From positions 186,001-250,000 of the forward strand of contig NZ_VLKR01000002.1 in the NCBI RefSeq assembly GCF_007830445.1: a stretch of DNA of 64,000 nucleotides, written 5' to 3'. The stretch is from Sphingobacterium siyangense (lineage in GTDB: Bacteria > Bacteroidota > Bacteroidia > Sphingobacteriales > Sphingobacteriaceae). Within the stretch, counting starts at the first letter, position 1. The number at the start of each line of letters is the position of its first letter. Position numbers and translations under genes: made by a program. Below the pieces are notes generated by a model. It was given only the letters and a program-made list of their open reading frames with translations. It had not been told where the DNA came from and searched no databases. Of the stretch, positions 47,382 through 53,564 are shown one piece after another.

Positions 47382-48563
47382 CTACGCGATTTCAGCAATA
47401 AAATTGCCCTCTTGATCCAAATCGGCTTTGTGAGCTGCGATTTGTTGAAGATTAATATGTCCTATGACATATTTGAAATCTGGTGCGTAATATCGTTCTG
47501 TGATTTCACTGAAATTTAACTTTTCAATCAGCGTATCATCGGTGTATCTCAAATAAACCTTAATTAAATAATCTTGGCTATAATTTAATGTGCTGGATTC
47601 TAAATGTTTTTTATATTCATAACGGTATCCATAGCGCAGGGCAGCGATATCCGATAGTACAGCAGAACCCGTAGGGTGGCCACCGGCTCCTTTACCATAG
47701 AAAAATTGTTCGTCTGCAAAGGCCGCTTTTACCAATACACCATTGTTCTCATTTTCTACATTATAGAGCATGCTGTCTTTGCCTACTAGGCGTGGTAATA
47801 CATAAAGTACAACTTTGTTGCCGTCGATTTCTTTTGCTGTTGGTATCAATTTGATCTTGAGGTTCTTTTCTTTAGCAAAACGAATATCTTGCTGTCCCAA
47901 TTTGTCAATACCAATATTAAAGACATCGTCTGGTTTGACATAGATCCCGTACGCATGGGAAGCAACAATACATACTTTAAATTTTGGGTCAAATCCACCT
48001 ACATCAAGGGTAGGATCTGTCTCTGCAAAACCAAGTTCTTGCGCTTTCTTTAAAGCATCTGTATATTGCTGGTTTTCATTGAAAACTTTAGATAAAATAT
48101 AGTTGGAAGATCCATTAAAAATACCGCTGACAGAATGAAGTAATTCATTGTCATAGTACTCTTCTAAATTCCGTATAATGGGAATACTTCCGCAAACGGC
48201 ACCTTCGTACAATAAACTGGTGCCGTATTCATGTTGAATATCAACCAGCTCTTCCAAATGGCTGGCAATCATTTTTTTATTGGCAGATACCACATTTTTT
48301 CCCGATTTCAAGGCACGAACAGTTAGTTGATAGGCTGCTTCGGCATCATCTATTAGTTCGACAACAGTATTAATTTCTGGGTCACCTAAAATTGTTTCGG
48401 CATCGGTAGAAAATAGATCTGCTGGTAGCGAGCGCTTTTTATCTCCGTTTTTAATGACAAATTTTTTGATTTCCAGATTAAGATTTTTGGTTTTGATGAT
48501 ATCGTAAAGACCTTGGCCTACTACACCAAACCCAAACATCCCTATTGTTAATTTATTACTCAT
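47382..48563 (-). CDS. hom: Homoserine dehydrogenase
   Basis: 393 residues. NAD(P)-binding turn GMFGFGVVGQGLYDII (residues ~8-23), then VVELIDDAEAAYQLTVRALK, GKNVVSANKKMIA, EGAVCGSIPIIRNLEEYYDN, GIFNGSSNYILSKVF and GFAETDPTLDVGGFDPKFK; the catalytic Lys and the substrate-binding Glu/Asp lie in these last blocks. No C-terminal ACT domain is visible, so feedback by threonine through ACT is unlikely. It makes homoserine from aspartate semialdehyde for the two genes upstream in the same transcript (gap 37 bp). Confidence 0.92.
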   Translation of the reverse strand: MSNKLTIGMFGFGVVGQGLYDIIKTKNLNLEIKKFVIKNGDKKRSLPADLFSTDAETILGDPEINTVVELIDDAEAAYQLTVRALKSGKNVVSANKKMIASHLEELVDIQHEYGTSLLYEGAVCGSIPIIRNLEEYYDNELLHSVSGIFNGSSNYILSKVFNENQQYTDALKKAQELGFAETDPTLDVGGFDPKFKVCIVASHAYGIYVKPDDVFNIGIDKLGQQDIRFAKEKNLKIKLIPTAKEIDGNKVVLYVLPRLVGKDSMLYNVENENNGVLVKAAFADEQFFYGKGAGGHPTGSAVLSDIAALRYGYRYEYKKHLESSTLNYSQDYLIKVYLRYTDDTLIEKLNFSEITERYYAPDFKYVIGHINLQQIAAHKADLDQEGNFIAEIA

Positions 48564-48600: not shown

Positions 48601-49644
48601 TTATACTAATTCGTTGATGTATTCTTTTTGTTCCCGCAGAAAGCTGCTGATGATTTTCGTGAGTTTTTTTGTTTCGATCAAAAACCCATCGTGGCCATAA
48701 GTAGATTCGATCTCCTGATAGTGGGCATTCGGAATATGTTGAGCGATGAATTGTTGCTCTTGTGGAGGAAACAACAAATCTGTATTGACGCTCAGCACTA
48801 AAGTTGGACAGTCGATGCTCGCTAAAGCGGATTCGATAGATTTTCTTCCACGACCTAAATTATGGCTGTCCATTGCTTTGGTTAGGAAGTAATAGCTGTA
48901 CGCATTATAGCGTTTTACCAATTTTTCACCCTGATAGTTTTGATAGGAGGATGCTTTATAATGATCGAGTTTTTCGTTATCATCCTCCTTTTGTGTGTTG
49001 GCATACGTTGTATAGTTGCGGTAAGACAACAGTGCCATAGCGCGTGCAACTTTTAAACCCTTAGCTCCGCCATCGGGATGATTCGCATAAAAGGTTCGAT
49101 CAGTAGTAATGGCAAGACGTTGACTTTCATTGAATGCAATACCCCATGGTGAATGGACGGCATTTGTTCCAACGACGATTAGATGGTTGATGGCTATACT
49201 GCGTGATACGGCCCATTCCAATGCTTGTTGACCGCCCAATGAGCCCCCAATAAGGAGCTCTATTTGTTTGATATCCAGGTGGTCTGCAAGAAATTGATGT
49301 GCTTTGATCAAATCTCTTACTGTAAATTCAGGAAAAGATAGGTAGTAAGGCTGTCCAGTAGCTGGGTTTACAGATAGCGGATTACTGCTATTATATGCTG
49401 ATCCTATGACATTGGCGCAGATAATATAATAATCGTTTGAATCAAATAATTCACCTGTTCCAAAAAGACCTGACCACCAATCCAGTACATCTGCATTGGC
49501 CGTTAGTGCATGGCAAACCCAGATCACATTACTGCGATCAGCGTTGGGTTTGCCAAATGTTTCATAACTGATTTGTAAATCAGTAAGCTCTCTTCCATTT
49601 TCAAATACAAAAGGCTCCGGGTGCAGATAAATATGCTTACTCAT
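48601..49644 (-). CDS. metX: Homoserine O-acetyltransferase
   Basis: 347 residues, alpha/beta hydrolase fold. WVCHALTANADVLDWW (oxyanion side), LLIGGSLGGQQALEW with nucleophile Ser135, acid in LVLSVNTDLLFPP and His in TYGHDGFLIE. The sequence is the standard MetX layout. It acetylates homoserine with acetyl-CoA to feed MetY. Middle gene of the metY-metX-hom operon (gaps 32 and 37 bp). Confidence 0.95.
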   Translation of the reverse strand: MSKHIYLHPEPFVFENGRELTDLQISYETFGKPNADRSNVIWVCHALTANADVLDWWSGLFGTGELFDSNDYYIICANVIGSAYNSSNPLSVNPATGQPYYLSFPEFTVRDLIKAHQFLADHLDIKQIELLIGGSLGGQQALEWAVSRSIAINHLIVVGTNAVHSPWGIAFNESQRLAITTDRTFYANHPDGGAKGLKVARAMALLSYRNYTTYANTQKEDDNEKLDHYKASSYQNYQGEKLVKRYNAYSYYFLTKAMDSHNLGRGRKSIESALASIDCPTLVLSVNTDLLFPPQEQQFIAQHIPNAHYQEIESTYGHDGFLIETKKLTKIISSFLREQKEYINELV

Positions 49645-49676: not shown

Positions 49677-50993
<1,317 letters not shown>

Positions 50994-51000
50994 TCAGATT

Positions 51001-51042
51001 TTAAGGGTTCAAAAAGAAATTGCTAAGTAAAAAGAGAAGCAT
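51001..51042 (-). CDS. 13-codon leader ORF with perfect Shine-Dalgarno
   Basis: Minus strand: AAGGAGGTG (51054-51046), 3-nt spacer TGT, then ATG at 51042; the peptide is MLLFLLSNFFLNP and stops at 51001, 13 nt before the metY ATG. A full Shine-Dalgarno is rare in this phylum, and metY itself has none. Translation of this ORF could load ribosomes for metY by coupling. Reading is from sequence; coupling is inferred. Confidence 0.6.
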   Translation of the reverse strand: MLLFLLSNFFLNP

Positions 51043-51097
51043 ACACACCTCCTTGAAGGGTCTGTTAAATCTTTATCCAAGAAAAAGGAAATGATTC

Positions 51098-51232
51098 TTA
51101 ACAAGCGTGGAAGTGCATATGCATACGCATTCGCATCAATACAGTTGTATGATGGCTTACACTTTCGCTTATCGTGCGGCTCACTTGTGTTGAACCTGAA
51201 TTTTTAATGGACTTCAGTAGTTTAATAATCAT
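51098..51232 (-). CDS. 44-residue Met/His-rich leader peptide
   Basis: An ORF that starts 11 nt past the 3' strand of the SAM-I aptamer, ATG complementary to 51230-51232, stop at 51098. The first half is ordinary (MIIKLLKSIKNSGSTQVSRT). The end, residues 31-44, reads VLMRMRMHMHFHAC, with four Met in seven residues and a terminal Cys. A run of methionine codons just downstream of a methionine-pathway riboswitch is what a translational attenuator would look like. It could also be a conserved small protein with metal-binding His/Met/Cys. Confidence 0.65.
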   Translation of the reverse strand: MIIKLLKSIKNSGSTQVSRTISESVSHHTTVLMRMRMHMHFHAC

Positions 51233-51242
51233 TGTCTTATGT

Positions 51243-51356
51243 TATTTATATGCTCCAAAACGATATTGTTTTGGACAGGAATTGGCACCTTTTCAAACAA
51301 ATTGAAGGTTGCCAGTGGGTCATTGAGCCAGTCTCTCGCCACTTCTTTATAAATCA
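51243..51356 (-). ncRNA. SAM-I (S-box) riboswitch
   Basis: Minus-strand RNA shows the S-box order. P1 5' strand ATTTATA pairs with TATAAAT at the 3' end. AAGAAGTGGCGAGAGACTGG and GACCCACTGGCAACC form P2 with the conserved core; CCTTCAATTTGTTTGAAAAGG is the P3 region with GGTGCCAATTCCTG after it. CCAAAAC/GTTTTGG forms P4 (about 51253-51275). The aptamer binds S-adenosylmethionine. It lies ~50 nt after the predicted start of the metY-metX-hom transcript. No intrinsic terminator with a U-run follows, suggesting translational rather than transcriptional control. Confidence 0.88.
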
Positions 51357-51409
51357 AGACCTACTGATTAAGGGAGGTGTTGATTAGAAATCTTCTTTCG
51401 AAGACGATA

Positions 51410-51440
51410 CAAATATAAACTCTTTTTTTATTAAAGCAAA
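51410..51440 (-). promoter_or_regulatory. Promoter of the met operon leader
   Basis: Minus strand: TTTG (51440-51437), 19-bp spacer, TATATTTG (51417-51410). Full match to the Bacteroidota vegetative consensus. It predicts a start near 51403 and a ~415-nt leader. Confidence 0.82.
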
Positions 51441-51536: not shown

Positions 51537-53564
51537 TTATGATTTCTTTAAGTTGATCCGTTCTGCAATTTGATTTAAATCTGTTAAAAGAGGTTTAAGT
51601 GCATCAATTCTACTATGGATATCATACGTCAGGTGGCGATTCGTCTTTTTGCTTAACGATAGCGAAAGACCCACCAAATGGGAGTTGACCTGATAAGAGA
51701 GTGCCTGAAAATGGTGTATATGTGACCAATCCATCCATTTGTGTTCGGGTTCTTTTTTCATTTGATTGATAGCGTCTGAAAACAGGGCCATGGCAGTCTG
51801 CGCTTTTTTGCGAGCCAGCCGTATATCAAACGAACTTTGTCTCTCGTCCGACAGACGGTTATTGATGATCTGGAAATAATGTTCGTTGTAAAGAGATACC
51901 TCTTTTGCCAGCTGAACCATGCCTGTGCTCTGGCGTACAGGGATCAAGAAATAACCTGCTATAGCCAAGAATGCTCCAATAAGTGTAAAAAGCATTCGGC
52001 TGCCTAAAATGAGATTGATATTGCCTTCAAACAAATTGAGTGCAATCACAATTCCCAAGGTAATAAAGATGACACTGACCATATAATTAGATCGATTGAA
52101 TAAAAAGAATCCGAAAAGACCTAATGCAGCTATGGTAAGAAGAGCCGGGAGAAAATGAATAGCAATTAAGCAGAATATGCCAACGATTATACCCGAGAAT
52201 GTGCCTACAATACGCTCTATATTACGCTTTTTTGTCATTGAAAATGCTGGTCTGGCAACAATAGCGATCGTCAGTAAGATCCAATAGGTATATTTAAAAT
52301 CTAAAAATAAAATACCGATCAATGCGCCTGTTCCAAAAAGAAGAGCCATCCGAACGGCAAATCGAAAAAGCGGGTTATTCAGATGGAGTTTACTTTTTAG
52401 ATCAGCAAGATTGCGCAAAGGTCGATTGATAAATTGTTGGTACTCACTGCTGTCAATCTTATCCTGGATTTCCTGATTTTGATAAAAAGCCACCTGAATT
52501 CGGTTGAGCACTTCAATAATTGCTTCGATGTTGCTTATGATCGAATATAATATACTTTTTGCTTGACCGGCCTGCTCTTCTTGAATTTCTTTTAAATCCT
52601 GTAAGAGGGCATTAATTTTAAAGTTATTGTGATATAATTGATGTGCATACCGAAACCTCTTGTTAGGTTGTGAAAAGCTATCAATTTCTAAAGCTAATAA
52701 TTTGATTGTTTGACGGATTAAAGGGAGGCTGCCCGTGTCTGCAAGGTTTTTGCGAATCGCATCATAGTCGTGATCAAGTGCAATAATTAACTCATGGAGG
52801 TCAATTAACCCATAAACTTGACTGAGCCAATAATTGCTTTTATGCCACTGTTGGCTTATGATTTTTTTTTCTCGAAAAAGAAGGGACCTGATTTGTTCCT
52901 GCTGTTCGCTGATCTGGCCATGAATTTTGCCTACGCGACTGTACGTTATATTCAAAGGAATATCGGGATCGTAAGACTGGGATCGTATCAATAGAAATTG
53001 GGATAATCCATGAAAACCATTGGCCATCGCATGTTTTAGCGAGCGATAAGGTTGTATATAGGCCTGTAAAAGGCTAAAAAAGTAATATATAATGGATCCT
53101 GTTGTAATCTGTAAACTAACTGCAAGGGGGTGTTGCGGGGCCATTCCGATCACAAAACTCATGAGAATCAATGTCATGTTTCCAATTGCAGCATAACGAG
53201 CTCCAAAAATACCGTATAACGTACATATAAAACCGGCCGCCGCTAGCAATATAACCAAGGGCCAATGATACGGAAATACAATCGCTGTAAACAATGATGC
53301 AACGAAAAAGGTGGGAATACATACGAGAGCAGAAGAAAGTTTATCCTTTCTGTTTCCAGGAGGATCTGTGAGTGTTGTTAATAACGATCCGACACCGATT
53401 CCAATTGCCGTGCTCGCTTGCGCTCCCAATAAGTAGATCGCTAAACTTGGCAAGATGCTGATGGAAACATTACGTAATGCGTCTCCAGAATGCTCGCCAT
53501 GCATAAATCGTATCATAAGGATATAAATACGGTAGAATCTTTTCTTCAATGATACAGTGCTCAT
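51537..53564 (-). CDS. FUSC-family (YccS/YhfK-like) inner-membrane protein
   Basis: 675 residues. Two membrane bundles (residues ~25-175 and ~395-530) are separated by a ~220-residue helical cytoplasmic region, the FUSC/YccS plan. The second bundle contains YWILLTIAIVARPAFSMTKK then RIVGTFSGIIVGI, the hallmark of aromatic-acid-exporter-type FUSC domains. The start at 53564 follows an AT-rich region. Family members are presumed efflux components for aromatic or toxic acids; no partner membrane-fusion gene is adjacent. Confidence 0.85.
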   Translation of the reverse strand: MSTVSLKKRFYRIYILMIRFMHGEHSGDALRNVSISILPSLAIYLLGAQASTAIGIGVGSLLTTLTDPPGNRKDKLSSALVCIPTFFVASLFTAIVFPYHWPLVILLAAAGFICTLYGIFGARYAAIGNMTLILMSFVIGMAPQHPLAVSLQITTGSIIYYFFSLLQAYIQPYRSLKHAMANGFHGLSQFLLIRSQSYDPDIPLNITYSRVGKIHGQISEQQEQIRSLLFREKKIISQQWHKSNYWLSQVYGLIDLHELIIALDHDYDAIRKNLADTGSLPLIRQTIKLLALEIDSFSQPNKRFRYAHQLYHNNFKINALLQDLKEIQEEQAGQAKSILYSIISNIEAIIEVLNRIQVAFYQNQEIQDKIDSSEYQQFINRPLRNLADLKSKLHLNNPLFRFAVRMALLFGTGALIGILFLDFKYTYWILLTIAIVARPAFSMTKKRNIERIVGTFSGIIVGIFCLIAIHFLPALLTIAALGLFGFFLFNRSNYMVSVIFITLGIVIALNLFEGNINLILGSRMLFTLIGAFLAIAGYFLIPVRQSTGMVQLAKEVSLYNEHYFQIINNRLSDERQSSFDIRLARKKAQTAMALFSDAINQMKKEPEHKWMDWSHIHHFQALSYQVNSHLVGLSLSLSKKTNRHLTYDIHSRIDALKPLLTDLNQIAERINLKKS

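Follow-up and report, generated by a model that had tools for sequence, protein, structure and literature searches.

A conserved open reading frame in series with a SAM-I riboswitch suggests a two-input leader of the metY operon in Sphingobacterium

The metY operon of Sphingobacterium siyangense is preceded by a SAM-I riboswitch aptamer and, directly past it, by a short open reading frame (ORF) that recurs in the metY leaders of the genus. The comparison of these leaders lends good support to a conserved leader peptide that looks translated and is coupled to SAM-I. As to its role, we give slightly better than even chances to a leader with two inputs, in which SAM would act through the P1 helix at the start of the leader ORF and the charging of Cys and Met tRNAs would be read by the translating ribosome. 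This reading and the rivals weighed below are based on sequence comparison and on folding computations.

The locus lies on the minus strand of the window, i.e., of the whole stretch of 64,000 nucleotides that was analyzed (Table 1). The order given in a preliminary description of this DNA, with promoter, SAM-I aptamer, 44-codon ORF, and metY following one another, is borne out, and its 11-nucleotide gap before the start codon is one shorter when counted from the 3' end of the Rfam match to the ATG. The Bacteroidota promoter consensus is TTTG/TAnnTTTG, and the candidate promoter was read by eye; the sole match of a sigma-70 scan, whose scope does not include this promoter type, lay elsewhere and was below chance. 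The aptamer match spans positions 1-108 of the 108 of the covariance model, which identifies it by sequence as a member of the SAM-I family. A loose-threshold Rfam scan of positions 50980-51420 gave nothing besides RF00162 above its gathering score, and a two-ligand tandem riboswitch was rejected on this ground. Upstream, a YccS/YhfK-like transporter gene (51537-53564, minus strand; under the curated cut-off) ends about 180 bases before the aptamer. The genes 3' of the leader ORF follow in the order metY, metX, hom, and both scores of the metX-like gene (TIGR01392 and PRK00175) are under the curated cut-offs. Two more SAM-I aptamers of the same genome, which precede metE-like and metF-like genes, lack an ORF of this kind. 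The leader peptide, which ends in VLMRMRMHMHFHAC followed by TAA, matched no family in NCBIfam and Pfam (one NCBIfam match, E 0.036, is far under its cut-off). Among the 558 ATG ORFs of 15-60 amino acids in the window, it is the only one with at least four Met in the last 14 residues.

Table 1. Features of the metY leader and operon in the window
Feature	Positions	Strand	Details
Candidate promoter	51410..51440	(-)	TTTG 51440-51437 and TATATTTG 51417-51410, read by eye
SAM-I (S-box) riboswitch aptamer, RF00162	51243..51355	(-)	88.4 bits vs gathering score 44.4
A-rich spacer, P1 to leader start codon	51233..51242	(-)	10 nt in the window
Leader peptide ORF	51098..51232	(-)	ATG start, 44 codons, MIIKLLKSIKNSGSTQVSRTISESVSHHTTVLMRMRMHMHFHAC, stop TAA
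CGA-AUG-CGT core (Arg34-Met35-Arg36)	51125..51133	(-)	matches [C/R]M[C/R] family motif
Terminator 5' arm GCATATGCACTTCC, inside tail codons	51109..51122	(-)	
Inner hairpin	51063..51103	(-)	TGTTAA 51103-51098 (with stop codon) pairs with TTAACA 51068-51063
Terminator 3' arm GGAGGTGTGTATGC	51039..51052	(-)	
T-rich tract TTCTCTTTTTA, 3' of stem	51028..51038	(-)	
metY, O-acetylhomoserine sulfhydrylase	49677..50987	(-)	TIGR01326 674.3 bits, cut-off 495.1
metX-like homoserine O-acetyltransferase	48601..49644	(-)	TIGR01392 343.9 bits (cut-off 500), PRK00175 312.9 (cut-off 331)
Homoserine dehydrogenase (hom)	47382..48563	(-)	PRK06349 317.9 bits, cut-off 205

The conservation of the ORF was assessed in the metY leaders of 92 of 93 genomes of the genus; the 93rd, which has one weak aptamer match, was left out. 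Counts refer to sequences distinct in their first 200 bases, with close relatives counted apart, and the strict ORF rule (an ATG at most about 22 bases past the aptamer, at least 15 codons, an end before the gene) is blind to the tail. An ORF of at least 15 codons is present in all 77 distinct SAM-I leaders of metY in the genus, a count that excludes L024 (on a short contig). L097, a metY leader without the Cys tail, was left out of the counts. The ORF starts 7-12 nucleotides past the aptamer, with a spacing of 8-10 in 74 of the 77, which bears out, for the genus, the conservation of the frame that the preliminary description had proposed to test. The start context is A-rich in these leaders, and Bacteroidota rarely use Shine-Dalgarno starts. 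Among 94 control SAM-I leaders of metH/E/F/BC/X genes, the ORF is found in three and a Cys/Met tail in none. The controls exclude 38 leaders of other genes and three of OsmC-like genes, in which a tail with at least three Cys occurs in one and two cases, respectively. In view of these controls, the ORF is a feature of metY leaders in this family and some others, not of SAM-I itself.

The same arrangement extends beyond the genus. We retrieved 80 named metY loci, with a SAM-I core detected by a simple pattern in 66 (60 distinct). The strict start rule finds the ORF in 52 of the 60 and the tail too in 50; in seven of the eight loci that fail the rule, a Cys-tailed ORF starts 1-4 nucleotides before the estimated end of the aptamer. 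Two named loci, L104 and L106, are without such a tail. In the class sample (295 genomes, 88 SAM-I places), the ORF is present in seven of eight metY leaders and the tail in five among the best 150 matches; in the phylum sample (296 genomes, 70 SAM-I places), again among the best 150 matches, the figures are 9 of 35 and none, and in L127 a Cys ORF lies further downstream. Four other families of the class have the metY form, with the tails MMCCCCCCM (L127), SSYCCCC (L289), SSCCHCMCC (L323), and MACCCR (L329). The Cys ORF is within 13 nucleotides of the aptamer in L289 and L323, 92 nucleotides away in L329, and 146 in L127, which fails the strict start rule. The form is also found in metagenome-assembled genomes named Adhaeribacter and Cytophagales (L086, L103).

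Conservation resides in the uninterrupted frame, the distance of the start from the aptamer, and the core of the tail. Over the whole peptide, the synonymous fraction is 0.263 against an expected 0.205 +/- 0.018 (p 0.0025, 29 disjoint pairs). Hence, the coding-type substitution pattern that had been proposed as a check is significant, but the codon-level constraint is weak. Such a weak signal is what could be expected if the element acted as RNA only, the ORF being incidental to a conserved structure. Yet the ORF is intact in 77 of 77 leaders, with its start at a fixed distance and in A-rich surroundings, and the clades have the tail core in common but not the structure, which makes an RNA-only element hardly credible.

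The last 14 residues of the window's peptide comprise four Met, three His, and one Cys, the last being the terminal residue. At least one Met is present in this region in 77 of the 77 genus leaders and the motif [C/R]M[C/R] in 71. For Cys, the counts are 69 with at least one, 30 with at least two, 12 with at least three, and 8 with none, and in shuffled leaders Cys is found in the last 14 residues of 0.375 of the longest ORFs. At least three Cys are found in 58 of the 179 distinct metY leaders of all taxa examined. The tails of Pedobacter and Mucilaginibacter are Cys runs with Met inside (CICMCCCC, CMCMCCCCC, TMCMCCCIR); many Sphingobacterium peptides have Cys slightly upstream and end in RMR, and those of the window's clade end in RMRMHMH..C. 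The Cys codons of the other clades are both TGT and TGC. Per 14 residues, 102 representatives (drawn from 139 ORFs that were chosen by their tail pattern, six of them probably not leaders) have 2.7 Cys in the tail vs 0.18 in the body and 1.6 Met vs 0.05. His shows no tail enrichment in these representatives (0.32 vs 0.35).

How general, then, is the run of Met codons that gave rise to the idea of a sensor? Tails with at least four Met are found in 20 of the 77 genus leaders, all from the window's clade. This clade was chosen by the pattern RMR[MTE]H[MT]H, which fixes its R, M, and H columns by selection, and choosing it by the word TGTGTATGC of the terminator 3' arm returns the identical 20 leaders. 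Within it, the first Met is kept in 20 of 20 leaders, the third in 17, and the fourth in 14, the variable positions changing to Thr or Glu, and all 20 end with a Cys codon. Of the Met run that was to be conserved, the single core Met thus stands in 77 of 77, but the later positions do not. What the family has in common is the core CGA-AUG-YGN ([C/R]M[C/R]), with Cys close by; the Met/His run is a variant found in the window's clade. The proposal of two serial signals of one pathway keeps its basis, a conserved ORF in series with SAM-I and sulfur amino acids in its tail, but loses the Met run as a general sensor. Cys, which had been named in passing as a possible signal, gains weight from its presence in 69 of 77 genus tails and from the Cys runs of Pedobacter and Mucilaginibacter.

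A sensor specific for Met, in which the Met codons would respond to charged Met-tRNA and Cys would have no role of its own, has in its favor that Met is steadier than Cys in the genus (77 vs 69 of 77 leaders, and at least four Met in 20). Tandems of SAM-I and a T-box for Met show that nature pairs SAM and Met-tRNA signals (PMC9481103). Outside the window's clade, however, there is about one core Met, and the tails of Pedobacter and Mucilaginibacter are Cys runs; within the clade, two of the four Met vary to Thr or Glu, and the changes to Thr preserve the pairing of the terminator. We consider this alternative rather unlikely, although the sparseness of Cys in the genus led us to weigh it up and the two-input reading down. 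A nascent peptide could also sense a soft metal or the oxidation of thiols, since Cys, His, and Met are metal ligands. CruR, a copper-sensing leader peptide, is a precedent for the reading of metals, eight of the last 14 residues in the window are of these three kinds, and SAM-I/Cys leaders also stand before a gene of the OsmC type and before an operon that includes a redoxin gene. The lack of overall His enrichment in the tails argues against it, as does the genomic setting, which is clearest for methionine synthesis and sulfatase genes, and we judge it very improbable.

In the window, the tail codons are part of a terminator-like structure, in which GCATATGCACTTCC pairs with GGAGGTGTGTATGC, followed by TTCTCTTTTTA. 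The 98-nucleotide stretch folds at -26.1 kcal/mol (z -3.7); a simple terminator scan with a loop limit of 8 is blind to this stem. A terminator-like stem is present in 20 of 20 leaders of the window's clade, the shuffled rate being 0.13. Across the 20 leaders, the first 11 stem positions form standard pairs in all 220 cells of the pairing table despite variation of the codon arm at three positions, the constancy of the 3' arm being by construction as it was located by the word TGTGTATGC. This is conserved pairing and not covariation proper, because the changes are one-sided. The changes of Met to Thr (ATG to ACG) convert a U-G pair to a C-G pair, and since they keep the terminator pairing, His need not be a signal.

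The folding computations suggest that the terminator of the window's clade is dependent on the position of the ribosome. With a ribosome-sized mask whose A site is on any of the last ten codons, the terminator value is at most 0.11 in 20 of 20 clade leaders, a result that is partly trivial because the mask covers the terminator arm; once the mask is moved back to 18 or 24 codons before the end, the medians reach 0.99, with minima of 0.59 and 0.31. Without a mask, the clade has a median of 0.68 (range 0.01-1.0) and the window sequence 0.02-0.17, a low value that is due to a competing fold, which is not uniform across the clade. Hence, equilibrium folding does not support for the window's leader the simple scheme in which the lack of translation means OFF.

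A general intrinsic terminator 3' of the ORF was rejected. The RMR clade has a terminator-like stem in 9 of 55 leaders, somewhat more than expected from its shuffled rate (0.06), and the remaining leaders have one in 9 of 58, just as expected from theirs (0.145). In 49 of the 55 leaders of the RMR clade, a helix begins at the third base of the UAG stop codon, without a general T-tract, and one of its pairs exchanges U-A and C-G; RNAalifold gave next to nothing for the RMR-clade (-0.5 kcal/mol) and Mucilaginibacter (-0.05 kcal/mol) sets. As the hairpin that follows the stop codon in the other clades is mostly without a T-tract, the final step there is probably translational or Rho-dependent.

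The Arg codon that precedes the core Met raises an additional question. It is CGA in 85 of 85 RMR/RMC metY leaders (51133-51131 in the window), against a background of 16 CGA among 231 Arg codons in the metY genes of 19 Sphingobacterium loci, and the Arg codon after the core Met uses all four CGN. Seven hand-picked leaders of other genes have CGA as well; four leader-like ORFs from the unpicked pattern set have CGA twice, CGT once, and CGC once. Among 44 representatives, no conserved complement to the CGAAUGCG core was consistent within the leader. The two-input model leaves the CGA before Met unexplained. This codon points to a constraint at the level of nucleotides or codons, and with it to translation-coupled antitermination without amino acid sensing: SAM would set the rate of translation, any ribosome would disrupt the hairpin, and the tail would be shaped by pairing or by a codon effect. 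The fixed spacing of the start after P1 fits such a mechanism, and so does the identity of tail codons and terminator arm in the window's clade. On the other hand, the Cys codons of the other clades are both TGT and TGC, and Cys tails recur before other genes, so that we regard it as improbable.

For the two-input reading, the first input would be SAM, bound by the SAM-I aptamer. The full-length aptamer match and the methionine synthesis genes agree with the SAM-I family; the difference is that the nearest downstream start is here that of the leader ORF, not of metY, with no room for a terminator in between. As the ORF begins 7-12 nucleotides past P1, too close for a terminator in between, SAM most likely acts at the start of the leader ORF. 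In SAM-I, the 3' strand of P1 can include the ribosome site (PMC2258182), and such a site would here belong to the leader ORF. On this basis, we infer that SAM closes P1 over the initiation region, so that high SAM would result in less translation of the leader peptide. The second input would be the supply of charged sulfur amino acid tRNA, which the ribosome would sense while translating the C-terminal tail, as suggested by the composition and conservation of this tail. The amino acid would most clearly be Cys across the family, and Met together with the last Cys in the window's clade. The tails are best read as a means by which the ribosome senses the charging of Cys and Met tRNAs, and the case for Cys looks clearer in Pedobacter and Mucilaginibacter than in Sphingobacterium. 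A ribosome slowed on the last ten codons, which in the window's clade overlap with the terminator's 5' arm, would block the stem, allowing the transcription of metY-metX-hom; with a ribosome that is not slowed, the computed geometry lets the stem form, and transcription would stop.

Canestrari et al. reportedly described mycobacterial cysteine leader peptides in 2020, leaderless ones to go by the title. We rejected this poly-Cys leaderless attenuator as a class for the window's ORF, which has a SAM-I aptamer 5' of it and a tail with one Cys and no Cys run. The cysteine leader peptides of Actinobacteria are encoded by short ORFs that precede sulfur genes and carry Cys codons close to the stop (PMC1262725). 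The passages of that paper on these leaders mention no riboswitch, and on Mycobacterium they report no conserved terminator hairpin; in the present case, the ORF is linked to SAM-I, carries the CGA-AUG-YGN core, and precedes metY. In uORFC-8-2, before cysS of Rhodobacterales, the Cys codons lie in a stem, and a U run suggests an intrinsic terminator (PMC8632094); the lineage (Alphaproteobacteria), the gene, the two Cys codons, and, as far as the excerpt goes, the lack of a riboswitch set it apart. The tandem of SAM-I and T-box-Met (PMC9481103) resembles the metY leader in that one leader reads SAM and an amino acid tRNA in series, but the tRNA is read by RNA there and by a translating ribosome here; the terms "leader peptide" and "uORF" are absent from the main text as available. 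In Mycobacterium tuberculosis, B12 riboswitches and a translated uORF likewise set gene expression together (PMC11260477). This case differs by its route of termination-reinitiation at ppe2, and the abstract mentions no amino acid run. The cyanobacterial Downstream-peptide motif similarly has a short conserved ORF immediately 3' of an aptamer that is a riboswitch candidate, but this ORF is, in the section on the motif, not an attenuator of a further gene, and the phylum and the presumed ligand are others (PMC2864571).

Compared with leader-peptide attenuators as a class, a conserved short ORF between candidate promoter and structural gene is found (77 of 77), codons for amino acids of the pathway lie near its stop in the window and the genus, and the terminator is found by computation in the window's clade and not in the other clades. 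Riboswitch and leader peptide are each of a known kind, and the combination is apparently unreported: the open-licence literature, as far as its accessible text goes, yielded no paper that couples SAM-I with a leader peptide. The view that Bacteroidota have no described leader-peptide system is too strong, as the transcriptome of Flavobacterium psychrophilum gave, in the part of PMC9723704 that treats them, strong clues for leader peptides upstream of amino acid operons.

Similar leaders were found before other genes. Three genomes of the genus (L208, L212, L214) have SAM-I and, 9 nucleotides on, a short Cys ORF ahead of an OsmC-like gene (PF02566 in L421), and other Cys leaders precede genes for a PhyH protein and a serine carboxypeptidase. 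SAM-I and a Cys/Met leader also stand before TonB-receptor genes (L225, L324/L420, L387/L416). In L420 and L387/L416, the receptor is paired with SusD, and one of the three loci has a redoxin gene; the uptake of a sulfur compound may be governed here by both signals. Two leaders, L127 and L324 (the latter before a TonB-receptor gene), have a clear intrinsic terminator, a perfect stem followed by a T-run, between the aptamer and the Cys ORF, and the SAM-I and leader modules look physically separate and arranged in series.

Cys leaders without an RF00162 match were found before a TonB receptor in the genome of the window and before a SusC/SusD-sulfatase operon in a relative. The former (L381, at G000:C5:12134-12148; L414:1-300) is a candidate leader ending in KKRMCC, followed by AAAAGGGAAGCC-GA-GGCTTCCCTTTT, a perfect inverted repeat with a T-run, and by the gene of a TonB-dependent receptor. 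The pattern scan of this genome gave three matches, of which L381 is the one that is a short ORF before a gene, vs four in the reversed control; as the pattern is not enriched over this control, L381 as a second leader peptide is a lead only. Across the family, 30 of the matches listed were examined, many of which are coding or due to chance. In the relative, the leader-like peptide MKIYMHFSLPHRMCCCC (PHRMCCCC; L384/L415, minus strand) precedes a TonB/SusC-type receptor (PF00593/PF07715), SusD (PF07980), and two sulfatases (PF00884), a context that looks like the control of organosulfate scavenging by sulfur starvation. We suggest tentatively, at a little less than even chances, that leaders of this kind form a sulfur-starvation family of Bacteroidota, defined by the CGA-AUG-YGN core and Cys codons and placed before metY, SusC/SusD-sulfatase, TonB-receptor, and OsmC-like genes. 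In the metY leaders, the peptide would serve as the expression platform of SAM-I, with SAM gating a sensor of Cys/Met charging, and the whole would be a nested riboswitch-attenuator that reads two ends of one pathway.

If the two-input reading is true, the target of the aptamer is the sensor ORF itself, and one leader weighs SAM against the supply of sulfur amino acids. With more than 100 distinct leaders and their natural variants (Cys run, RMR, Met/His), ribosome-based control in Bacteroidota becomes testable, and the CGA-AUG-YGN core with Cys provides a handle for finding a sulfur regulon in this phylum.
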